Source: Aequorivita xiaoshiensis
GTDB taxonomy: Bacteria; Bacteroidota; Bacteroidia; Flavobacteriales; Flavobacteriaceae
Direction: 5' to 3'
Length of the DNA: 64,000 bases
Assembly: GCF_022008395.1 (NCBI RefSeq)
Contig: NZ_JAIRBB010000012.1
Span: 1-64,000 of the forward strand
The position numbers and the translations under genes were made by a program. A model generated the notes under the pieces. That model saw nothing but the letters and a program-made list of their open reading frames with translations. It did no database searches and was not told the DNA's origin. Position 1 is the stretch's first letter. Every line of letters starts with the position of its first letter. This document shows, piece after piece, positions 19,488 through 64,000 of this stretch.

Positions 19488-22400
19488 ATGAAAAAAATTA
19501 CCTTTTTAACCTTAATGGCATTATTTCTTACCTCCTTGGGGTGGCAAGCCAATGCCCAATATTGTGCTGCTGCTGGAAACAGTACCACATATGAAAAAAT
19601 TACAAATGTTACCTTTGCGGGCATAAATAATTCTACTACCGTTCATCCAGGATATAGCGATTTTACAAGTATGGTTGCAAGTCTTAGTCCTGGAGGAACT
19701 GAACAATTATCAATCACTATAGATCCTGATGGTGGTGATTATTTATATGCCTTTATAGATTGGAATCAAAACGGTATTTTGGATGATGCTGGTGAGGCAT
19801 ATAATATTGCGGGTCCTATCGGATCTAGTGGTCCTCATACTTTAAATATAACTGTTCCTGCTTCAGCCTCACTTGGGGATACTCGTATGAGAATTAAGTT
19901 GAAATGGGGGGCATCCGATCCTGGACCTTGTGGTACTTTCTCTTTTGGGGAAGTTGAAGATTACACTGTAAATGTTGGAAGCGTAGTTGGTAACCCACCT
20001 GTTATTTCTTGTCCTACAGATATAACAGCGTATACTGAGGCTGGCGTATGTACTGCAGCGGTGAATTTCAGTGATGCGATTGCATTCGATACTGAAGATG
20101 GTGCTATACCTACAACTCAAACTGCTGGTCCTGCTAGTGGAAGTGACTTCCCTTTAGGAGTAACTGTTGTTGAGTATTCTGCAACCGATAGTGATGGTAA
20201 TACTGTTACTTGCCAGTTTGAGGTTAATGTAATAGATGACGAAGCTCCTGTGGCGGTTTGTCAAGACATCACAGTAGATCTTGATTCTGTAACTGGAATG
20301 GCTTCAATTACAGGTGCAGATATAGATAACGGTTCTACTGATAATTGTGGAATTGCTTCTTATACTCTAGATATTTCAAGTTTCGATTGTTCAATGATTG
20401 GAGAAAATACAGTAACCTTAACGGTAACTGATAACTCAGGAAACTCGTCAACTTGCACGGCTACTGTTACGGTACAAGATACTACTGCACCAGAAGTGTT
20501 CTGCGTTGGAGGGTTTGGAAACTTTTCAGAGTCTGAAGACTTTGAATCATCTTCTGTACCGGCTGGATGGACAACTAATATAATTCTAGGTTCTCAAGAT
20601 TGGACCTTTGGTTCAGGTGAAATGCCAACTGGAGGAGACTTCCCAACTAATGCTGCAATTTTTGATGACGACGCAGCGGGAAGTGAAGATAATATTGCAG
20701 AGTTAATTTCCCCAGTTTACGATTTAACAGGAGCAACCGCTGCAGATATCTCGTTTGATTATGCTTTACAAGATTTCGCAGGGTTAGGTTTACTACGTGC
20801 AGAAGTATGGGACGGTGCGGCTTGGCAAGAAGTTTTCTTAGCTGATAATGCGGATATTGATCCTACAAATACGGGCGCAATAGATGTAACTGCGTATATA
20901 AATAATGCCTTCCAAGTTAAATTCACATTCGATGACGAAACAGGATGGAATTGGGGTGCAGGTGTTGACAATTTCTTACTAAACTATCAAGCTGCTTCAG
21001 GTGGTGGATTAGACGTATATCTTGATGCTAATGGTGTAGCAAGTATAGACCCTAGTGATCTTGTAACAGGTGTTACAGAAGCCTGTGGATACACAATCAC
21101 CGCTGGAGGTGTTGGTGGAGGAGCTCAAGGTTCTCTAACAAGTCTATTTGCTTCTGGAAATAATGGAGCTATGGGTGGTGCTGTATATTTCGATATCACA
21201 GTGGGACCAAGCGACTTAGATGTAACCGAAATTGATATAAATACCGCAGACCCAGGTGCATTTACTATGGATGTTTATACTCTAGTGGGAACTTATGTTG
21301 GCAATGAGACTAATGCCGCTGCATGGGGAACAGCTGTTGCAGTTGGTTCTGGAACTGGTGCAGGGCAAGACGCTCCTTCTAATGCTGTATTAGATAACCC
21401 TATCACATTAAGTGCTAACACTACTTACGGTATTGCATTGGTATTAGATGCTACACATGCTCACTATTATACTAATGGTGACGGAAGTAATCAAAACTTC
21501 TCTAACGACGATATGTCTATGTCTTTAGGGGCTGCTTCAAATACACCTTTTACAACGCCAATCTTTGCACCAAGAGTATTTAATGGTACTATCCACTATG
21601 AAACTTCTGGGGGCTCAGGGCTTGACTTTACTTGCGCAGACCTTGGTGAGAACATGGTAGAAGTTACGGTTACCGACTCAAGCGGAAATACTGCAACTTG
21701 TACAGCCGTTGTTAATGTTATCGACAACATTGCACCAGTAATTACTTGTGGTGTTGTACCTGTAACTACAGAATTAGAAGAATTTGAAGGATCAACTATA
21801 CCTTCTGGATGGACAACTGAGGTTCTTAGTGGAAATGCAGATTGGGCTTTCGGTTCTGGTGATATGCCTACCGGAGGAGATTTCCCTACCAACGCAGCAA
21901 TTTTTAATGACGACGCAGCGGGTAGTGGTGAAGTAAATTTAGTATCCTTAATTTCACCTGCATATGATATTACAGGTGCTGTTTCGGCTTCTATATCATT
22001 TGACTATGCATTACAGGAATTCGCAGGTGATGGTACACTTGCAGTAGACGTATACGATGGTGCAGCTTGGCAACAAGTTTTCTTTGTAGACGTTGATACT
22101 GATCCTACAAACTCTGGTAGTATAGATGTTATGCCATACGCCAATGCTAATCTTCAAGTTCGCTTTACCTTTGACGATGAAGGTGCTTGGGGATGGGGTG
22201 CTGGAGTTGATAACTTCGAGATTACTTACGAGACTTCTGCAACTGGTAATATGATAGATGTTGCTCTAGGTGCAGATGGAACAGCTACCATCGATCCTTA
22301 TGCTTTACTTTCAAACATCGATGAAGCTTGTGGAATCGATACTATAGCAACAGATGTAACAACTGTAACTTGTGCAGATATAGGTACCCCAGTATTGGTA

Positions 22401-27746: not shown

Positions 27747-27754
27747 TAGTTTTG
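27747..27754 (+). promoter_or_regulatory. -7 promoter element ahead of the cobalamin riboswitch
   Basis: TAGTTTTG matches TAnnTTTG. Transcription would begin near 27761, just before the riboswitch. Confidence 0.6.
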
Positions 27755-27762
27755 CGCCACAT

Positions 27763-27975
27763 TTGGTTTGTTGCTGAAAAACTTCAGTACAATTAAAAGG
27801 GAATCAGGAAAAGTGAATTTTTGCACTTAATAAAAGCCTGAGCTGTTCCCGCAACTGTAAGCTGAGTCCCAAGATTGGGATGTCTGTAATTAAAACTTCA
27901 AAATCCACTGTTGGTGAACCAATGGGAAGGAAAATTACAGAACGCGAGCCAGGAGACCTGCCAAATAACAACTAA
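27763..27975 (+). promoter_or_regulatory. cobalamin riboswitch
   Basis: AdoCbl/corrinoid-type riboswitch. Landmarks in order: GGGAA with a following purine-rich segment and variable stem (from 27799), GCCTGAGCTGTTCCCGCAACTGTAA (B12-box region around 27835-27860, the CCCGCAACTGTAA motif), the paired arm CCACTGTTGG...CCAATGGGAAGG (about 27905-27930), and the conserved end GCGAGCCAGGAGACCTGCC (27943-27962). The order and spacing match the family. It controls the genes downstream, expected to be repressed when B12 is plentiful. Confidence 0.93.
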
Positions 27976-28013
27976 CTTAAAACAATGGCTTTCGGGTAAA
28001 AAGCTACAGGTTT

Positions 28014-47027: not shown

Positions 47028-47118
47028 AGGATGTATTGCTAACTTTTCCCTTCGCTGGTACTAACCAGATCAGGTTCAAAGGGTCTTTCTCAGTTCTAAT
47101 TTTTAGAACACCCCTAAA
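47028..47118 (-). promoter_or_regulatory. TPP riboswitch (thi box)
   Basis: Read on the minus strand: GGGGTGTTCT near 47113, a short variable stem, CTGAGA then AAGACCCTTTGAACCTGATCTGGTTAGTACCAGCG and AAGGGAA (47041-47095). These are the conserved helices and bulges of the TPP aptamer. The leader between it and thiS (about 125 bases) can hold the expression platform. Expected to lower expression of the whole thi operon when thiamin pyrophosphate is high. Confidence 0.96.
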
Positions 47119-47128
47119 GTTTACACCA

Positions 47129-52230: not shown

Positions 52231-52827
52231 ATGTTTAAAAAATCCCTAACCCTTTCTATACTGTTAATAAGCACACTCTTTGTTTTTATATCTTGTGATA
52301 AAATTGAACAAAGATTAAAGTCTAAAAATCTAAAGATTGGTGATAAAGTAGATAGCCTAAATGGTGTTTATGTTTATTACAACGCTAATGTTGGAAATGT
52401 AAAAGGAAGGAACACTACTGCCGATGGATACAACATCGGACTAAAATACCAATGTGTTGAATTTGTTAAGCGTTACTATTACGAACATTTAAATCATAAA
52501 ATGCCAGATAGTTATGGGCATGCAAAAGATTTTTATGAAAAGGGATTAGGAGATGGAAAAAGAAGTAAGCGAAGAAATTTAATTCAATATTCCAACCCTA
52601 GCAATAGTAAACCTAAAGTGGATGATCTTTTAGTTTTTGATGGCACAACTACCAATAAATATGGACACGTAGCTATTATTTCAAAAGTGACAGATTCCAA
52701 AATAGAAATTATCCAACAAAATCCGGGACGCTATGGCCCCTCACGAGAAAACTTTAAACTGAAACAAAGCAACGGAAAGTGGAAAATTGGTAATACTAAA
52801 ATTTTAGGATGGTTACGAAAGGAGTAA
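52231..52827 (+). CDS. CHAP-domain amidase lipoprotein
   Basis: A 198-residue lipoprotein (leader ending VFISC). CHAP domain: catalytic Cys in YQCVEFVKRYYYEHL (about residue 75), His in NKYGHVAIISKV (about 149), acidic/Asn partner in IEIIQQNPG. CHAP enzymes cleave peptidoglycan stem peptides or glutathionylspermidine; the sequence order GYNIGLKYQCVEFVKR is closest to the amidase of the latter group. Second gene of the unit, 56 bases after DUF4846. Confidence 0.85.
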   Translation: MFKKSLTLSILLISTLFVFISCDKIEQRLKSKNLKIGDKVDSLNGVYVYYNANVGNVKGRNTTADGYNIGLKYQCVEFVKRYYYEHLNHKMPDSYGHAKDFYEKGLGDGKRSKRRNLIQYSNPSNSKPKVDDLLVFDGTTTNKYGHVAIISKVTDSKIEIIQQNPGRYGPSRENFKLKQSNGKWKIGNTKILGWLRKE

Positions 52828-52874
52828 CTGTTGGTTTTTATTTTTAGATTTGATAACCTAATATTTACTAGTAA

Positions 52875-53285
52875 ATGAGATTTTTTAGAAATATAGCACT
52901 TCTCTTACTTCCATATCTCTTAATGATAATTATCAATGAAGCCTATCGCCCGACGATAAAGGAAACACCCTATTCGCTGAAAGGAATAACAGCTATAAAT
53001 TCAGATGTAAGAACGCCGGATAAATGTACATGGGCGGCACATAGCGATACTGCGTATTGTAAGCAACACCATGTAAAACTTCTTAAAAACTATATGGAAA
53101 CTACCGATAAAATCTATTTTGGAGCCATAGGCGCGTTGCGGTCCACCGGTAACTATGGCGCTGCCAATGTGATTTTTTTGGTTATCCTATTTCCACTAAT
53201 AATTTGGTATTCATTAGTGAAAATCATTGACTACACTTTAGAAATTAAAGCACTAAAAAAACAGTACAATGGAAAATCTAAATAA
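52875..53285 (+). CDS. membrane protein with conserved periplasmic segment
   Basis: A 136-residue protein with helices at about 5-22 and 96-118. The loop between carries a Cys/His-rich segment (DKCTWAAHSDTAYCKQHH) which might bind metal or form a disulfide. Unrecognised. It overlaps the next gene by 17 bases and follows the CHAP gene by 47 bases, so all four are probably one operon. Confidence 0.6.
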   Translation: MRFFRNIALLLLPYLLMIIINEAYRPTIKETPYSLKGITAINSDVRTPDKCTWAAHSDTAYCKQHHVKLLKNYMETTDKIYFGAIGALRSTGNYGAANVIFLVILFPLIIWYSLVKIIDYTLEIKALKKQYNGKSK

Positions 53286-53511
53286 TCTATATCAGACGAT
53301 AATGTATATAGGCGGTGTTGTGTATGCCTATTGCACAGACTTTACTATCAATCTGGCAAATCTGACAGGTACGTCGTATTACGAAATTAATTTTTTCTTT
53401 TTCTGTGTGCTTTTTCCACTCCTAATTATAGTATTACCTGTAATTGCTGTAATCCTAAAATATAGATTGCGAGGCTTGAAAAAGCGTACAGGCCTTTATT
53501 CGGTTCCTTGA
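53269..53511 (+). CDS. small membrane protein
   Basis: An 80-residue protein with two hydrophobic segments (about 8-20 weak and 42-66 strong, FFFFCVLFPLLIIVLPVIAVIL) and a basic C-terminus. Not recognised. Its start lies inside the previous gene (17-base overlap), so it is likely made with it, perhaps as a complex partner. Confidence 0.55.
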   Translation: MENLNNLYQTIMYIGGVVYAYCTDFTINLANLTGTSYYEINFFFFCVLFPLLIIVLPVIAVILKYRLRGLKKRTGLYSVP

Positions 53512-53546
53512 AAAGCACTGCTAAAATTATTTTTAGAAAACTCCAT

Positions 53547-54041
53547 CTACTTCAACAATAACTCCTTAAAAAATGCTTTCACTTCAACTTCAAATATTTC
53601 CTCTGGTATTCGATGTTGTAAATCTTGCCTGACTTTAATATTATAATTGTCAATTCCGATTGAGTTCGATAAAAATTCTAAAGTTGATTTTGGATCAATA
53701 ACCTCGTCTTTCGCCCCTAAAACCAGATGTTTTAAGTTGGAAATAGGATTTTTAATGTCAGGAATTTCTTGGTGAACAGAACGGTAGGCTAGGGCAGGAT
53801 TAAATAGTAATGCCGGACGTTGAAACCTGTCTGCTATATAATATGCCGCAAAACCTCCCATGCTACTGCCAATAACGAAATCGATGTTTTTATCGTTGTA
53901 TAGCTTTATCAAGCTTTCTATACTTCTCTCGTCATTTCTATAGTCGATTTGAGGCGAATAAACCATTCCGAATTCCTCAAGAATAGCTCGTTTTTCAGTA
54001 TTAAGACTGCTGTCCAACCCGTGTAGGTAAAGTATGTTCAT
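53547..54041 (-). CDS. YqiA/YcfP-like alpha/beta hydrolase
   Basis: A 164-residue minimal alpha/beta hydrolase of the YqiA family: ILYLHGLDSS at the N-terminus, nucleophile elbow GSSMGGFAAYYIADRF (Ser), LLFNPAL, LVLGAKDEVIDPK (acidic residue) and HRIPEEIF with the catalytic His. YqiA-type proteins are poorly defined esterases. Monocistronic, convergent with the small membrane protein gene. Confidence 0.85.
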   Translation of the reverse strand: MNILYLHGLDSSLNTEKRAILEEFGMVYSPQIDYRNDERSIESLIKLYNDKNIDFVIGSSMGGFAAYYIADRFQRPALLFNPALAYRSVHQEIPDIKNPISNLKHLVLGAKDEVIDPKSTLEFLSNSIGIDNYNIKVRQDLQHRIPEEIFEVEVKAFFKELLLK

Positions 54042-54235
54042 GTAGTTGTTTTTCTTTTTTTATTCATTTATAGCAAGGGCGTCGATATTTTTTTTCCACT
54101 CATATATTATGTTTTCTTCCAATCGTGATCGTCAAGTGAAATCCAACTAAGATAGTAGACATTATTAAGTTTAATCGAAAACCTTAAGGTTTTAATTCAA
54201 GTAATAGTACCATCGTTCCCGCGCGATTGCATCGC

Positions 54236-54428
54236 GTGGTTTCCTAGGCTTTAATGTAATATCAACTTGTTAATTCTCTTTCTTTATTCGATATCCGCTA
54301 TTGCTTTTCAGTATTTTGGTCGAGTTGTTGAGCTTTTTAATGAACGGCAGAAAACCATACGAGAAGACTCGTGCGGTAGCGGGTGTAGAAAATTTTCATT
54401 GCTTCAGTAATTTTGAAAAACAATGAAA
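54236..54428. repeat. dispersed noncoding repeat, copy A
   Basis: About 150 bases, from GTGGTTTCCTAGGC (54236) to GCGGTAGCGGG (54373), nearly the same as copy B at 58254. It contains perfect hairpins: CGCGAT/ATCGCG just before it (near 54223), ACGAG/CTCGT (54359-54372), and TTTCATTG/CAATGAAA (54394-54428). Copies A and B are in the same orientation, 4018 bases apart. The origin (MITE-like element, structured RNA or remnant of a mobile element) is unresolved. The rest of the gap 54042-54566 shows no gene. Confidence 0.8.
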
Positions 54429-54566: not shown

Positions 54567-55322
54567 TCAAATCCCAAACAACCATTTTATTTTAGATGTT
54601 ACTCCTTTTTTCTCATGATCAGCAATTGTAAACGTTTCATTGCAATCTATTAATGTAAGCTCTTTATTAAATCGCCTATTTATTTTAGATAAATTAATAA
54701 TCGTACTCTGGTTAATTTTTTCGAAACCATATGGTTCTAATTTTTTAGAAAGTGCATTAATACTTATTCTTATATTAGGAGAAATAACCTCGTCATTCTC
54801 TTTAAAAAAGTGAACACAATTTTTATTTGCTTTTTCACCCTTTATATTTTTGGACGTTGTAATGTAAAATATTTTATCAGGGTTAAAACCTATATCTTGG
54901 TTTACTCCAATGGAAAGTATTAATGATTCTCCTTTCTGTATTCCGATTTTACTATTTACTCTACCAACAACTTTGTTTTTTAAAATGATTTCAAACTCCT
55001 CTATCGCAAAAGGCTTACTTAAATAGCCTGAAATATCTAAATGATTAATCACATTCTGCTCATTGTTTCTAGTCGAGGTTAAAAAGATTACTTTTTTATT
55101 AGCTCCAATATTTTGTGCTAGTTCAAGACCATTATAACCTGGCATTTCAAAATCCACGATTAGTAAATCATAGTCCGTTTCGTCAACTTCTTTAAAAGCA
55201 TTTATGGAACTACTATAGCTTTTAATATGTTTTAAAGCATAATTGTTAGCGATAGTGTCAATTTTGCTTTTTACATAGCTTAATGTTTTGGGGTCATCAT
55301 CAACAAGTATGTAGCGTATCAT
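54567..55322 (-). CDS. LytTR-family response regulator
   Basis: A 251-residue regulator with receiver (about 1-120; acidic LVDDD, phospho-Asp 57 in LLIVDFEMPGYNG, Lys in YLSKPF) and a C-terminal LytTR DNA-binding domain (about 150-245, FEKINQSTIINLSKINRRFNKELTLI). It directly follows the kinase gene (adjacent, 55322/55323), so it is the cognate regulator. The likely targets are its neighbours, including the 46-residue peptide and viperin genes; this is inference. Confidence 0.88.
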   Translation of the reverse strand: MIRYILVDDDPKTLSYVKSKIDTIANNYALKHIKSYSSSINAFKEVDETDYDLLIVDFEMPGYNGLELAQNIGANKKVIFLTSTRNNEQNVINHLDISGYLSKPFAIEEFEIILKNKVVGRVNSKIGIQKGESLILSIGVNQDIGFNPDKIFYITTSKNIKGEKANKNCVHFFKENDEVISPNIRISINALSKKLEPYGFEKINQSTIINLSKINRRFNKELTLIDCNETFTIADHEKKGVTSKIKWLFGI

Positions 55323-57065: not shown

Positions 57066-58076
57066 ATGAAAACAAATTTTTTAAAGGTTAACAATGTTGA
57101 TTTTTTAAACAAGACTAATTATTATGGTTTAGTTCTAAATACAGATAATTTTACAACTAAAGAAGTTTCTCATCGTACAAATAAACACTACCCTGAATGT
57201 AATGGTGTAGGCACGATACCTAGTATTAATTTTCACCTGTGGGAACCTTGTAACATGAGATGTAAATTTTGCTTTGCAACCTTTCAAGATGTAAAACAAA
57301 CTATCTTACCAAAGGGACACTTGCCTGAACAGGATGCTTTAAAAGTAGTAGAGAAAATAGCTGCTGCAGGTTTTAAGAAAATAACTTTTGCAGGTGGTGA
57401 GCCTTTACTATGTAAATGGTTGCCAAAATTAATTAAGAAAGCGAAGCAATTAGGAATGATTACTATGATTGTTACCAATGGTAGTAAATTAACAGATGCT
57501 TTTTTAAAGGAAAATAGAGCCTATTTAGATTGGATTGCAGTAAGTGTAGATAGTTTAGATGAGGATATAAATATTAAATTAGGGAGAGCAGTTATAGGCA
57601 AAAAACCATTAAGCAAAGCGTACTATTGTAATCTAGTGGATAGCATCAAGAAGTATGGTTACGGTTTAAAAATTAATACGGTAGTGAACAAAGTAAACTA
57701 TAAAGACAACTTTACTGAATTTATTGAATATGCCAAACCAAAACGTTGGAAAGTACTACAGGTATTACCAATTATTGGACAAAATGATGATAAAATTCAT
57801 CAGTTTAAAATTACAGATGCAGAATATACATATTTTGTAAATACACATAAATCAGTAAAAGTGTTAGTGCCAGAATCTAATGAGCAAATAAAGGGGAGTT
57901 ATGTCATGGTAGATCCTGCAGGACGCTTTTTTGATAATGCAATGGGAACGCACAATTATAGTAAACCAATTTTAGAAGTTGGAGTGAAAGAAGCTTTAAA
58001 TGCAGTTTATTATAATCTTAATAAGTTTTTAAACAGAGGAGGGGTTTATGATTGGGAGATTACTAAAAATAAGTAA
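57066..58076 (+). CDS. prokaryotic viperin (pVip), antiviral radical SAM enzyme
   Basis: A 336-residue radical SAM enzyme. Cluster motif CNMRCKFCF (C62, C66, C69; C-x3-C-x2-C). The viperin-specific path is clear: KKITFAGGEPLLCKWLP, IVTNGSKL, LDWIAVSVDSLDEDINIKLGR (viperin: AISCDSFDEEVNVLIGRG), LKINTVVNKVNYKDNFTEFI (FKINSVINRFNVEEDM), KPKRWKVLQVLPIIGQN, VKVLVPESNEQIKGSYVMVDPAGRFFD and FLNRGGVYDW. Viperins convert CTP, GTP or UTP to 3'-deoxy-3',4'-didehydro nucleotides that terminate viral RNA synthesis; which nucleotide is used here is unknown. Comparison with human viperin is from memory. Confidence 0.9.
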   Translation: MKTNFLKVNNVDFLNKTNYYGLVLNTDNFTTKEVSHRTNKHYPECNGVGTIPSINFHLWEPCNMRCKFCFATFQDVKQTILPKGHLPEQDALKVVEKIAAAGFKKITFAGGEPLLCKWLPKLIKKAKQLGMITMIVTNGSKLTDAFLKENRAYLDWIAVSVDSLDEDINIKLGRAVIGKKPLSKAYYCNLVDSIKKYGYGLKINTVVNKVNYKDNFTEFIEYAKPKRWKVLQVLPIIGQNDDKIHQFKITDAEYTYFVNTHKSVKVLVPESNEQIKGSYVMVDPAGRFFDNAMGTHNYSKPILEVGVKEALNAVYYNLNKFLNRGGVYDWEITKNK

Positions 58077-58253
58077 TTTTTAATATATACGAATAGATCA
58101 TAAAGTATAAAACTTCACAAGCAGCTGAGGTTTTATAAATTTTTGTAATTTGACTTTTTTCTACTTGTTTAGTCTTTGTAGATTCAATGTTTGTTTGGGA
58201 TCGAGCGTTCGAAAAACATACGTCTGCTAGCTGCTGCTAAACCATTATATCGT

Positions 58254-58430
58254 CTGGTCTCCTAGGCTTTAACGTAGTATCGGTTTGTTAATTCTCTTTC
58301 TTTATTCGATATCCGCTATAGTCTTTCAGTATTTTAGTCGAGTAGTTGAGCTTTTTACTGAAGTGTAGGAAGCCACTCGAGAGAAATGACTTCGTCGAAT
58401 TTCATTTCATGCGGTAGCGTGGTTTGGTTT
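58254..58430. repeat. dispersed noncoding repeat, copy B
   Basis: Matches copy A from TCCTAGGCTTTAA (58261 region) through TTCTCTTTCTTTATTCGATA and GATATCCGCTAT to GAGCTTTTTA, then diverges and ends with GCGGTAGCG (58411). It has its own hairpin arms, GAAATGA and TCATTTC (about 58383-58409). The gap 58077-58543 shows no gene. Confidence 0.8.
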
Positions 58431-59526: not shown

Positions 59527-60399
59527 TTATAAAATAGGATTTTTCATAGAAGTTTTACCGTATGAAGGCTTTCCTGTTTTATGACAGTATTTTTCTTTAA
59601 AATTTTCATTTCCATATTCATTCCAAATTTTCCAAGCTTCTTTACACATGGGTTGTTTTGGATTGAACTTAATTTTTTTTCCAGTTCGAATACAATATCC
59701 ATAAGTTTGAATTTCCGAATTATTTTTATTCAAGAATTCTTCATTAAAAGCTTCTCTTTCGGGTCTGTCTTCTGAATTCGAACCTAATGCTAATTCGTCT
59801 GGATAATCATTCAATTTATTATTTCCTGTTTCTCCATTTAAAGAATTTCCATAGAATTTTTCTGTTGAGTCAAAAAGAATTTTGGAGCTGACATACCTTT
59901 TTCCAAATAGTTTCTGATCATAGACAGGTCGTTTAATGAACACAACTTCATTTGCTTCCGCAATATCCATGCAAGTATTCCAGGCTTCATTATCTGCTGA
60001 GGTTGAAAACCGATTTAAAATAGATTGTTTTGAAAAAACTCCAAATTCAATATTGTTTATAAACGAGTAATCATAAAGATTAATAGATGTAATAATTCCT
60101 TGACTTTCATTTCCATAATATTTTGCATGTAAATTAGGAGTATAAATAATACTAACATTAGGAAACTTCTTAAAAAAGTCAAAGTCCCTTTTATTCAAAC
60201 TCCGCTTAATGTCCTTTTGATTTTTACCAAACACCAAAAGAATATGAATTTTAGGGTCATTTTCATGTTTGTTAAACAACTTTTGAAAATATTCATCAAG
60301 CTTGATGAATGGGGAGACTATTAGTAAGTTAGCTTTTGCATCCCAAATAGTGTCATATATAGCTGATTCTAATTCTTTACCAGTTACAAATTTACTCAT
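59527..60399 (-). CDS. phospholipase D-like protein with altered HKD motif
   Basis: A 290-residue protein. The N-terminal part has the PLD fold pattern: ESAIYDTIWDAKANLLIVSPFI, KIHILLVFGKN, then HAKYYGNESQG (H91, K93) and TSINLYDYSFINNIEFGVF. The HxKx4D motif ends in Glu instead of Asp (E98), and only one HKD is present, so dimerisation would be needed for an active site. The C-terminal part (about 230-290) has a small Cys/His pattern (GYCIRTGKKIKFNPKQPMC, YCHKTGKPS), perhaps a zinc ribbon. PLD proteins occur in DISARM (DrmC). Confidence 0.75.
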   Translation of the reverse strand: MSKFVTGKELESAIYDTIWDAKANLLIVSPFIKLDEYFQKLFNKHENDPKIHILLVFGKNQKDIKRSLNKRDFDFFKKFPNVSIIYTPNLHAKYYGNESQGIITSINLYDYSFINNIEFGVFSKQSILNRFSTSADNEAWNTCMDIAEANEVVFIKRPVYDQKLFGKRYVSSKILFDSTEKFYGNSLNGETGNNKLNDYPDELALGSNSEDRPEREAFNEEFLNKNNSEIQTYGYCIRTGKKIKFNPKQPMCKEAWKIWNEYGNENFKEKYCHKTGKPSYGKTSMKNPIL

Positions 60400-60690
60400 A
60401 GTTGATTATTTAAATATTGAATATCTTCTTTTAAAGGAATAAATTAAATAGGCATCACATAGAAAAGAAGTTAATTCGGCACAATATATCAATTTTTGAA
60501 ATATTTAAAATGATCGGATTAGAGGATTCGAATCGTTAATTGTGTTGAATTATTGTAAAACTATCAGGTTATATAGGAATGACGAAGGTATAATTTCATG
60601 GCTTTCATACTAATATGCAAAATCTTCTAAGGCCCCCTATCTAATATCAAAATAGACAACCTATTTTAAGATTTAAAGTGTAAAAACTAC
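60400..60690. other. intergenic stretch before the HEPN promoter
   Basis: AT-rich spacer with no gene, repeat or hairpin that I can support. Confidence 0.35.
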
Positions 60691-60724
60691 TCTTAAAAAT
60701 ATCTTAAAATAATTATTATATTTG
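60691..60724 (+). promoter_or_regulatory. promoter block of the HEPN gene, duplicated upstream of the helicase
   Basis: Contains two TCTTAAAA-like half-sites and TATATTTG (60717-60724), an exact TAnnTTTG. 30 of 34 bases equal the block at 61620-61653. The leader to the ATG at 60886 is about 160 bases and holds an imperfect hairpin near 60749-60776. Confidence 0.7.
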
Positions 60725-60885
60725 AAACGCTCCCCAGAATTATAAATTCGTCCCATTCGTGAAATATCGAAATGGGATGGATGTTTATTGTTCTATATTT
60801 TAAAAATAGCCCTTCAAATCAGAAAAGATTTCAACGGAAAAGACTTAGAACAAGTTTAAAAACTTTTGATATTATTTAATTTAAC

Positions 60886-61560
60886 ATGATCAATCCTAAC
60901 AAGAGTATTGAGGTGATAAAAGCATCACTTTTAAAAAATAAACTTAAATCCTTATCAGGCGATTTAGATGAAAATAATGCAATTCGATTACATCGTGCAA
61001 TAAGTTGGGTGAAGTGTGCCGAAGAACAAGCTAACAATCCAGATTTAAAGTTTATTACATTGTGGATTGCATTTAATGCTTGCTATGCCGACAATGACGC
61101 ACATGAATTTGAGTTGTCCGAAAAGAAACGGTTTAGGGATTTTATTTCTAAACTGGTGGAGTACGATGCTGAAGATAGATTCTTTAAAATATTGTGGTAT
61201 AAGTTTCCAGGACCTGTAAGATTGTTAATTGATAATAAATATGCATACAAGCAATTTTGGGATGCACAACGTGGAGATTCAATAGATTGGGAGTCGCGTT
61301 TTAAACAATCTCAAATAGATTCGAGAAATTATCTAGCACACCAACAAGTATCTAAACTATTGGAGTTAGTGTTGGATAGATTATACACAGTTCGCAACCA
61401 ATTAATTCACGGTGGCGCAACCTATCAAAGCAAACTAAATCGCTCTCAAGTTAAAGATGCTAGTCAAATACTTGAATTTCTATTACCTATTATAATAGAT
61501 ATCATGATAAGTAATAGGGGAGAAGATTGGGGAGTGATAAATTACCCGGTTATCGAGTAA
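60886..61560 (+). CDS. HEPN-domain protein with R-x4-H motif
   Basis: A 224-residue, mainly helical protein. The HEPN ribonuclease-type motif is RNQLIHGG (R170, H175, R-x4-H with Asn after Arg). The family stretch ITLWIAFNACYADNDAHEFELSEKKRF near residue 58 is typical of HEPN proteins from defence loci. Active RNase function is plausible, since Arg and His are both kept. 258 bases before the helicase gene with a matching promoter, so the two may be co-regulated. Confidence 0.7.
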   Translation: MINPNKSIEVIKASLLKNKLKSLSGDLDENNAIRLHRAISWVKCAEEQANNPDLKFITLWIAFNACYADNDAHEFELSEKKRFRDFISKLVEYDAEDRFFKILWYKFPGPVRLLIDNKYAYKQFWDAQRGDSIDWESRFKQSQIDSRNYLAHQQVSKLLELVLDRLYTVRNQLIHGGATYQSKLNRSQVKDASQILEFLLPIIIDIMISNRGEDWGVINYPVIE

Positions 61561-61619
61561 TAAAAACTAATTATTAAAAATAATAACACGCATATTTAAT
61601 AATTAAAAGCATCAATTCT

Positions 61620-61653
61620 TCTTAAAAAAACCTTAAAATAAATGTTATATTTG
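61620..61653 (+). promoter_or_regulatory. promoter block of the helicase gene
   Basis: TATATTTG at 61646-61653 and the same TTAAAA half-sites as at 60691-60724 (four differences in 34 bases). Leader of about 160 bases to the ATG at 61819. Confidence 0.7.
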
Positions 61654-61818
61654 ATGCTCACCCTGTTTCAACACTCTTAATTTTGGTAGTTATTAAATTA
61701 GGTTGAAAATTATTTATTTAATCTATGATGGTATCAAGAAAATACTTCAAAAGTTATAAAGTCATTAGGCTTAAGGCAAATATCTATATAACTTTTTAAA
61801 TTCGATGGAATAATTATT

Positions 61819-64000
61819 ATGGATGCATTTAGAACACACAATCAAGTAATTTCAGAATATAGAAGTTATTTAGAATCTTTTTTAAATATTAGTGATGATA
61901 GAATTAAGACAGAAGTAAAAAAAGCTTTTAATGAGGAAGGTTTTATTCCTCAACCTCTTATTCAATTTAATCCATCTTTCCAGAGAGATCAATCACTTCA
62001 AGATCTGGTATCTCAAGGAATAGTACATAAAAACCTTCCTACCACATTTGGAGATTTTAAATTATATAAGCATCAAATTGAAGCGATAAAAAAGGGAGTA
62101 AACGACAAAGGATTTATTGTTACTTCTGGAACGGGTTCGGGTAAGTCGCTAACTTTTTTGGCAACTATTTTTAATCATGTTTTCAACTTTGGAGAATCTA
62201 AACCTTCCGGTATAAAAGCTATTCTAGTTTACCCAATGAATGCTCTTCTTAATTCTCAAGAACAAGAAATTAAAAAGTATCAGGAAGAGTATCAAAGGAA
62301 ATTTGGTGAAGATTTTCCAGTTACTTTTGGGAAATACTCTGGGCAGGAAGTTAGTTCTACACGTGAAGAAATCAAAAAGAATCCACCAGATATTATTCTT
62401 ACTAACTATATGATGCTTGAGCTAATTATGACCAGGCAAGGGGAAGGTTGGTTAAGAGATTCTTTATCAGAGTCATTAAAATATTTAGTGTTTGATGAAT
62501 TGCATACATATAGAGGTCGTCAAGGTTCTGATGTAAGTATGCTTATCCGGAGAATTAAAGGAATTTGTATAAATGAGTTAATTTGTATCGGTACTTCAGC
62601 TACTATGGCTAGCCTTGGATCAGTAGAAGAAAAGAAGGAGGCCGTTGCTAAAGTAGCTAAAACCATATTTGGAGAGGAATATTCGGCAAAACAAATTGTT
62701 AATGAGTATTTAGAGCCTTGCACTAATGGTCAAACTCCAGAAGCCCCAATCTTAAAATCCTATTTAGAAAATGAAATCCCACAAGGAGATGAGGTTGCAT
62801 TTATGACTAATCCATTAAGTAATTGGATAGAAACAGAAATTGCTTTAAAGTTAAATGGAGATGTTTTAGAAAGAGGAACGCCGATGACAATCGACGCGAT
62901 AACTAAAAAGTTATCTGACTATACTGGTGTAGAGTTTGAGATTGCCAAGGGAAAAGTAACCATCTTATTAAAATGGGCTGAAAAGCTCAATGAAGATAAT
63001 CGTCAAAGAAAGACTAATCAATCTTTTCTTCCTTTTCGTTTTCATCAATTTATATCGCAAACAAGTAATGTTTCAGTCACATTAAATTCTCGATCCGAAA
63101 GATATATTACAATTCAATCAAATAGATATGTCAAAGAAGGTGATCAGGAAAAATTATTATACCCGATTCTTTTTAGTCGATATTCCGGAATAGATTTTAT
63201 CTGTGTAGAGAAAGATGTTCAAACACGTACTTTATTGCCGCGGAACCCAAAAGACCACGTTAGATCCCTTACACTAAAGGAAGGGAAAGGTGAGGATTTA
63301 AACGAGTATAATTTTAGGAATGGATACATTATTCTTGACGAGGGTGAAGAGTTTTGGGAAGATGACCCGTTGGAGATAGTTCCCGAATCTTGGTTACGCA
63401 GCAGTTTAACTTCTTTTTTGCCGTATTATCAGTGGCATATGCCTCAGCCAATATATTTTGATGAAGAAGGAAATTACTCTGATACCCCTGATTATCCTAT
63501 AAAAGGATATTTTATCCCTGTGAAATTACGAATAGATCCAACCGCGGGAATTATATACGAGGATGCAAAAACTAATGAGAATACTAAGTTAATGAGTCTT
63601 GGTAATGAAGGAAGAAGTACGGCTACAACTATTACAAGTTTCGCCGTTATTAATTCATTATTTGAACAGGAAGAAAGTGCGAAAGATCAAAAACTTTTAA
63701 GTTTTACTGACAACAGGCAAGATGCCTCGTTGCAAGCAGGCCATTTTAATGATTTTATTTCCACAATTAAACTTCGGGCTGCCTTATATATAACAATTAA
63801 GGATTCGGATGCTAGTTTAAATATTGAAAACATTGCCGAAAGAGTTTTGAAAGTATTGAATTTAAAGGAAATCGATTATGCCAATCCCAATTTAATGAGC
63901 GATGATCCAGACTTTCCCGAAATAGAGAATATTAGAGCAATTAAAAACTATATTTTATATAGGCTATTTCAAGATCTAAAAAGAGGTTGGAGATATACGC
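61819..64000 (+). CDS. large DEAD/DEAH helicase, 3' end beyond the window
   Basis: Open frame from ATG 61819 through the window edge (727 codons, no stop). N-terminus MDAFRTHNQVISEYRSYLES and PQPLIQFNPSFQ match the family start. Walker A SGTGSGKS (about 103-110), LVYPMNALLNSQ, LTNYMMLELI, DELH box with FDELHTYRGRQG (about 225-235), motif III GTSATMA (about 257), and the diagnostic FTDNRQDASLQAGHFNDF near 630. This set is characteristic of large helicases that end in a DUF1998 zinc domain, including DruE (Druantia) and DISARM helicases. The missing part would decide. Defence role inferred from context. Confidence 0.85.
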   Translation, partial: MDAFRTHNQVISEYRSYLESFLNISDDRIKTEVKKAFNEEGFIPQPLIQFNPSFQRDQSLQDLVSQGIVHKNLPTTFGDFKLYKHQIEAIKKGVNDKGFIVTSGTGSGKSLTFLATIFNHVFNFGESKPSGIKAILVYPMNALLNSQEQEIKKYQEEYQRKFGEDFPVTFGKYSGQEVSSTREEIKKNPPDIILTNYMMLELIMTRQGEGWLRDSLSESLKYLVFDELHTYRGRQGSDVSMLIRRIKGICINELICIGTSATMASLGSVEEKKEAVAKVAKTIFGEEYSAKQIVNEYLEPCTNGQTPEAPILKSYLENEIPQGDEVAFMTNPLSNWIETEIALKLNGDVLERGTPMTIDAITKKLSDYTGVEFEIAKGKVTILLKWAEKLNEDNRQRKTNQSFLPFRFHQFISQTSNVSVTLNSRSERYITIQSNRYVKEGDQEKLLYPILFSRYSGIDFICVEKDVQTRTLLPRNPKDHVRSLTLKEGKGEDLNEYNFRNGYIILDEGEEFWEDDPLEIVPESWLRSSLTSFLPYYQWHMPQPIYFDEEGNYSDTPDYPIKGYFIPVKLRIDPTAGIIYEDAKTNENTKLMSLGNEGRSTATTITSFAVINSLFEQEESAKDQKLLSFTDNRQDASLQAGHFNDFISTIKLRAALYITIKDSDASLNIENIAERVLKVLNLKEIDYANPNLMSDDPDFPEIENIRAIKNYILYRLFQDLKRGWRYT

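Follow-up and report, generated by a model that had tools for sequence, protein, structure and literature searches.

Two copies of a repeat, A and B, in DNA of Aequorivita xiaoshiensis (the window, 64,000 nucleotides or 64 kb, analysed at full length) are very probably non-autonomous derivatives that have lost the interior of a RAYT unit, in which a Y1 (HUH, single-tyrosine) transposase gene lies between two inverted REP-like hairpins. An earlier note on this DNA, made from the letters alone, found that the repeat resembled no element it could name; the copies fit a REP/RAYT derivative.

The repeat pair and its borders

A direct-repeat search of the window gave the pair 54226-54364 and 58244-58382, 139 nt long and 83% identical. 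The flanks of A and B were unlike, and the description of the two copies as alike despite differing flanks was confirmed. With A as query, B was recovered from its own genome (G000, 3.06 Mb in 83 contigs) at E 1.6e-36, so the likeness was far beyond chance. At the settings used, the window contained two direct-repeat families, of which this pair was one. The other (20527-20685 and 21769-21927, 159 nt, 76%) lay within an ORF of 1168 aa.

The borders previously assigned, 54236-54428, were wrong. Copy A (54211-54386, plus strand, the right border being approximate) was a whole miniature element composed of a left hairpin, a RAYT-like spacer and a right hairpin. On the left it was bounded by the outer hairpin tip, which coincided with a synteny break against the genome G010, and on the right by the right hairpin and its tag. 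Copy B (about 58244-58430, plus strand) was a degenerate second copy, in which the left hairpin was decayed and the right one enlarged.

The hairpins of A and B

In a search of the window with the covariance model R1, filters off, only two matches fell below E 1. These were the two tips of A, inverted and close to each other. The left hairpin (54211-54239, minus strand), CCAC-GCGAT-GCA-ATCGC-GCGG with the degenerate tag GAACGATG, scored 32.5 bits (E 8.1e-6) and was not among the model rows. The right hairpin (54355-54384, plus strand), CCAT-ACGAG-AAGA-CTCGT-GCGG-TAGCGGG, scored 32.1 bits (E 1e-5) and was itself one of the 38 model rows. B gave no match below E 1 in the window search; in a smaller search (L195) it showed one weak end, the right hairpin, at E 0.76.

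Folded as DNA, the left hairpin of A gave z-scores of -3.3 on the plus and -1.8 on the minus strand, and the right hairpin -1.9 and -2.7, respectively. Full-length A (z -1.85) was predicted to form a separate hairpin at each end, and a single long hairpin of the REPIN type was absent from this fold. Full-length B gave z -0.76. An inner CCGCT of A (54295-54299) was complementary to AGCGG in the right tag (54378-54382) and paired with it in the whole-element fold; the same CCGCT was found in B, C83_a and G010_C14.

Hairpins with an unusual consensus

Alignment of 38 hairpins gave a consensus of a 2-bp foot, an A.C mismatch, a C-G pair, five variable pairs, a loop of 3-5 and a NAG tag, which read NAGC in 37 of them. 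Changes on both sides were seen in 7/8 pairs among these rows, which had been preselected for pairing and tag. They were hand-picked from a scan requiring both, so their 98% pairing was partly built in.

A second scan was free of pairing and demanded only the foot letters AC and GC and the tag AGCGG. In the RAYT loci L053-L082, all five stem pairs were Watson-Crick in 17 of 23 distinct sites, with nine different stems, compared with 1.2% fully paired when the arms were shuffled; the foot was paired in 20 of the 23. The remaining loci gave a paired stem in 20/25 sites and a paired foot in only 11/25.

R1 found 226 matches in 79 of 80 RAYT loci (E 0.01 or less). The best 150 of the 226 (93 distinct) were fitted to the model as a larger set, in which some loci (e.g. 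L115 and L053) had also been sources of rows for the model. In this set, too, both sides changed in 7/8 pairs. The mismatch A was present in 150/150 and NAGC followed the hairpin in 146/150. GT[AG]G preceded it in 1/150, and in 0/150 on the other strand. By covariation, R1 and the fold tests, the ends are short palindromes folding into a hairpin.

The hairpins were not numerous. R1 matches (E 0.01 or less, at most 150 candidates per genome scored) occurred in 26 of 28 genus genomes, at least 0 to 15 in each, and some of them may come from other RAYT groups. G000 had at least 13 at the same threshold, with 150 of 292 candidates scored.

RAYT genes between inverted hairpins

The 80 RAYT loci were the best of 269 places that encoded a relative in a scan of genome contigs, and by title all were from Bacteroidota, mostly Flavobacteriaceae. 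Within 250 nt upstream of the genes, 78 R1 matches were on the minus and 7 on the plus strand; within 250 nt downstream, 77 were on the plus and 9 on the minus strand, these limits being measured from rounded gene ends. Both expected inverted ends were found in 62 loci, at least one in 77 and neither in 3. By eye, both L008 and L049 showed a left hairpin, followed by a leader, the RAYT gene, a short stretch 3' of it and a right hairpin.

The proteins are Y1 transposases. PF01797 was above cut-off in both scanned RAYTs of the group, L008 (35.7 bits, cut-off 23) and L053. Among the 77 intact RAYTs (L112 and L178, each in two segments, and the short L117 were omitted from the 80), H60, Y145 and the SS motif were present in 77/77 and H62 in 76/77. 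A W was also present in all 77; the residue after it was R in 71 and Q in 4. A motif filter on 40 loci retained 17 distinct RAYT ORFs from 16 loci.

On contig C32 of G000, a Y1/RAYT domain also preceded coproporphyrinogen III oxidase (HemF) as an in-frame N-terminal fusion (L052:1477-3051; Pfam Y1_Tnp at 9-122, Coprogen_oxidas at 230-524). The fusion occurred in five genomes, G000 and, by eye, G010, G006, G009 and G025 (L051, L191, L192 and L193). The stop-to-stop ORFs were 516 to 578 aa with linkers of varying length. It may be a domesticated fusion.

Terminator-like sites

Each of the two intergenic regions contained one terminator-like site, inside the element, where shuffles gave 0.3 (A) and 0.2 (B). 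The site in A (54372-54359, minus strand, tail ATGGTTTTCT) was on the side of a response regulator gene ending at 54567. The site in B (58407-58422, plus strand, tail TTTGGTTTGT) followed a viperin gene ending at 58076. The hairpin in each copy was oriented to end the neighbouring transcript, which makes a borrowed host role possible.

The hairpins might, whatever their origin, now be kept because they serve the host as terminators or mRNA-stabilising structures. These sites and the stable hairpin folds are in keeping with such a role. On the other hand, the T-tails were poor, copies such as B and C83_a diverged and decayed, and hairpins were placed around a transposase gene in 77/80 RAYT loci. 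We consider it unlikely that a host role explains the hairpins; it would be compatible with a mobile origin and does not exclude one.

The spacer

When the window was searched with a profile built from RAYT 3' ends (L055 and L093 omitted), nothing significant appeared at A or B: B was ninth at E 9.5 and A was unlisted. The direction of the search was therefore reversed, and a profile of eight element spacers, cut by hand and including A and B, was run against 17 RAYT gene regions. Thirteen matches reached E 10 or less, and the top seven, individually weak with E-values from 0.007 to 1.7, were all on the RAYT strand. Placed by eye, five were at RAYT 3' ends (L093, L053, L054, L055 and a decayed second tail in L049), and the other two were in a leader or miniature copy (L049 and L008). 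The six weaker matches were mixed. Against the element sequences alone, the 3'-end profile gave E 2.4e-7 for C2, 0.004 for G005_m2, 0.017 for G010_C16a, 0.38 for B and 2.3 for A.

In A, the part at 54240-54285 (plus strand, TTTCCTAGGCTTTAATGTA...) resembled the RAYT 5' leader. By eye, L008 and L049 had the same order ahead of their RAYT gene, and the spacer profile matched the L049 leader at E 0.13. Downstream of this part, IAFQYFG (54300-54320, plus strand) is likely a remnant of RAYT codons that has lost its stop codon, to judge from the RAYT-end comparison, which was not significant for A alone. The likely counterpart in B, from the plus-frame reading of the spacer copies, is IVFQYFS (58318-58338, plus strand). 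Several intact RAYTs end in VFQYFG or alike before the stop codon. This suggested that the spacers of A and B derive, on the plus strand, from the RAYT leader and the last RAYT codons. The support is weak for A and B by themselves and comes from position and the series of copies, not from any one strong score.

The opposite strand had been noted to encode a peptide before TAA in both copies. Translation gave this peptide as KKLNNSTKILKSNSGYRIKKEN in A (54273-54338, minus strand) and KKLNYSTKILKDYSGYRIKKEN in B (58291-58356), each followed by a stop. The two differed in 4 of 22 codons, of which three changed the residue and one was silent, in agreement with the earlier remark that most differences change amino acids. 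The whole peptide was kept in 0/6 further spacer copies. Three of these (C4, G010_C14 and G010_C1) had an internal stop in its frame, and three (C83a and the near-identical G010_C16a and G010_C16b) had lost the SGYRIKKEN part.

A decayed minus-strand protein gene ending in KKLNxSTKILKxxSGYRIKKEN would explain the peptide before TAA in both A and B and the partial retention of its first dozen residues in some other copies. That reading is already largely contradicted by the residue changes in three of the four codon differences, by the lack of the whole peptide in the six other spacer copies and by the RAYT-like frame on the opposite strand, and we hold it to be extremely unlikely. From the comparison of spacer copies, the peptide was judged antisense and non-coding; it looks like an antisense accident, and the A/B element does not look like a gene. 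The earlier proposal of a noncoding element or a decayed gene end was right in substance and wrong in strand, the likely gene remnant being on the plus strand.

A series of deletions in the genome and genus

Six matches to A, the query included, were found in G000 at E 0.01 or less. The four outside the window copies were partial and were on contigs C83 (two), C4 and C2. Matches to A occurred in 6 of 28 genus genomes, including G000, and many consisted of about 30 bases at one tip. In G005, G013 and G020, A-like tips adjoined a gene with a Y1 transposase domain.

Contigs C4 and C2 end in REP/RAYT repeats. Near the end of C4, a 5'-truncated RAYT, 92% identical to residues 103-186, started directly after a REP end. 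Further right ends were found there, together with a RAYT gene that lacked its middle and read 35 codons. Matches spanning the junction of this deleted form were found four times in G000, at C4:63645-63770 (the query itself), C2:782-876, C2:631-721 (slightly different at the junction) and C2:3709-3855 (at 70%), and once in G010, at C16:1742-1832. The other matching genomes (G002, G006, G009, G013, G019 and G020) contained one half only, or the halves apart. In the own assembly, the search recovered no intact RAYT of this group but just the C4 fragment, a TnpA of the IS200 type and the RAYT-HemF fusion. The TnpA (C11) and the fusion were rejected as parents; neither locus had an R1 hairpin at E 1.

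Two further features were seen in L107 (contig C2 of G000) and L086 (contig C16 of G010). Several deleted RAYT copies contained a second palindrome (CCAGCCTGCGTACTGGCAGG and its variants), and RHS-like genes, recognized by eye, adjoined the REP clusters.

Synteny breaks and the defence neighbourhood

The match between G010 and the window (about 90%) ran from 52334 to 54211 and resumed at about 60665. The left break coincided with the outer tip of A, which opened a block of 6.5 kb. At the right border (about 60665), the R1 window search found no REP. In two other comparisons of G000 with G010, C4/C16 and C83/C14, unlike DNA also began at REP tips.

The block contained a gene for a LytTR response regulator, an ORF lacking Pfam matches, genes for a radical SAM viperin and a phosphoesterase, and an ORF that weakly matched DrmC. 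The radical SAM gene (57066-58076) matched prokaryotic viperin profiles, with E 5e-198 to the viperin-kinase model, and B was just downstream of it. Genes with best PADLOC matches to DruE3, DpdE and DrmMI were downstream of the block. From 59527 to 64000 and on into L190, the order was the ORF weakly matching DrmC, an ORF whose HEPN matches fell short of the curated cut-off, and the DruE3-, DpdE- and DrmMI-like genes. To judge by these matches, the neighbourhood of A and B looks like a defence island. The earlier note had suggested a look for defence genes or transposases nearby, and both the viperin block at A and the defence-type genes downstream were found.

Of 249 family genomes, six had a viperin relative at E 1e-30, G000 among them. 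The loci of the five other viperin genes (about 1.5 kb of flanks) had no REP by R1 at E 1. This control is soft and would miss decayed copies, since B itself was barely detected by R1. A composite element from A to B carrying viperin was unsupported, because the right break in G010 was at about 60665 and not at B.

An Rfam scan of the window at the gathering score gave nothing at A or B. It identified riboswitches elsewhere, for cobalamin (27747-27979) and TPP (47030-47125). The earlier note had named a known insertion sequence or a retron ncRNA as what would overturn its view. For the latter no Rfam family was found at the gathering score; on the insertion-sequence side, a transposase unit does match. 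The phage collection gave no match to A, and a match to an Acinetobacter plasmid in the plasmid collection (query 39-76, E 0.1) was taken as chance.

The hairpins, the near-symmetric ends and the REP tips at several G000/G010 synteny breaks might also fit a structured RNA of a new kind (e.g. a retron msr/msd) or an attC-type recombination site. We regard this as very unlikely: Rfam gave no match at the gathering score except the two riboswitches, the hairpins flank RAYT genes, and neither a reverse transcriptase nor an integrase was seen among the Pfam-scanned neighbours. A doubtful extension of the RAYT-derived reading is that the Bacteroidota REPs (3' NAGCGG tag, A.C mismatch, freely changing stem) are a separate class, the tips of which might be breakpoints for swapping strain gene blocks, here the viperin defence block, through RAYT cutting or recombination between dispersed copies.

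Comparison with known systems

A and B are of a known kind, the non-autonomous REP/RAYT element, with unusual hairpins that lack a 5' GT[AG]G and have a 3' NAGC tag and a fixed mismatch A. Like the REPs and BIMEs of E. coli, Pseudomonas and Stenotrophomonas, these hairpins are short and stand in inverted pairs around RAYT genes. According to the consulted part of PMC2817692 (2010), RAYTs are flanked by two inverted REPs, suited homologs were there confined to gammaproteobacteria, and REP copies usually exceed 100 per genome. The copies here were few in comparison (at least 13 in G000). For the E. coli enzyme, the portion of PMC8266576 at hand describes a need for GTAG and a stem bulge, with cleavage at CT; the stem mismatch found here recalls that bulge. 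Because they lack the GT[AG]G tag, the present hairpins are not canonical REPs, though placed and paired alike. The excerpted text of PMC3733652 describes REP families with tags and also RAYTs that lie between inverted repeats of other kinds.

The nearest described group is TnpA-Y1 or RAYT subclass 2.6, which the available sections of PMC6006769 (2018) place mostly in Bacteroidetes, with NHxH, W, Y[IV]H[NQ]NP and SS motifs and with genes flanked by 'atypical secondary structures' that have copies elsewhere in the genome. The RAYTs found here are likened to it by motifs, having a Y1_Tnp domain with the HUH and catalytic Tyr motifs. They differ in the WQ motif, W being followed mostly by R. Those sections leave the flanking structures unspelled, and an explicit consensus is given here. 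In the open literature, no paper describing a flavobacterial REP structure was found by title or abstract.

REPINs, in the passages of PMC3116915 (2011) that we drew on, are miniature inverted REP pairs believed to depend on a RAYT in trans for their movement. A is likewise a miniature inverted pair; it differs in that its spacer, about 115 nt long, probably contains RAYT remnants, and in that no single long hairpin is predicted. A and B also resemble MITEs of an IS200/IS605-like unit. The ends are retained and the inside is deleted, the deletion form occurs at several places, and parents with the same kind of ends exist (L008, L049, L053 and others). A difference is that the comparisons yielded no empty site with the flanks of both sides.

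A possible mechanism

In single-stranded DNA, such as the lagging strand, each end of the element would fold into a hairpin with the A.C mismatch in its stem. The outer side of each hairpin would be a single-stranded tag, with the arrangement hairpin-NAGCGGGG on one strand and CCCCGCTN-hairpin on the other. Provided in trans, a RAYT may bind both ends, cut beside the tags and rejoin the piece elsewhere. A copy would then need its ends alone, so its interior could decay. Cutting, the cut site, the choice of strand, mobilisation in trans and past movement of A and B are what we infer from the arrangement of the sequences. B, being decayed, can probably no longer move.

Implications

The present results give the structures called atypical in the 2018 survey (PMC6006769, from the sections available) a stated consensus, a test of covariation and a model with which they can be searched for. 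Within one genus, the forms range from the intact unit through an internally deleted gene and a 175-nt miniature with a few RAYT-like codons to a lone hairpin. This series suggests how miniature REP elements may arise from a transposase unit, an origin offered as one possibility in the cited passages of PMC3116915. The ends of A provide a defined DNA substrate for studying how RAYTs may choose their sites without a GTAG guide.
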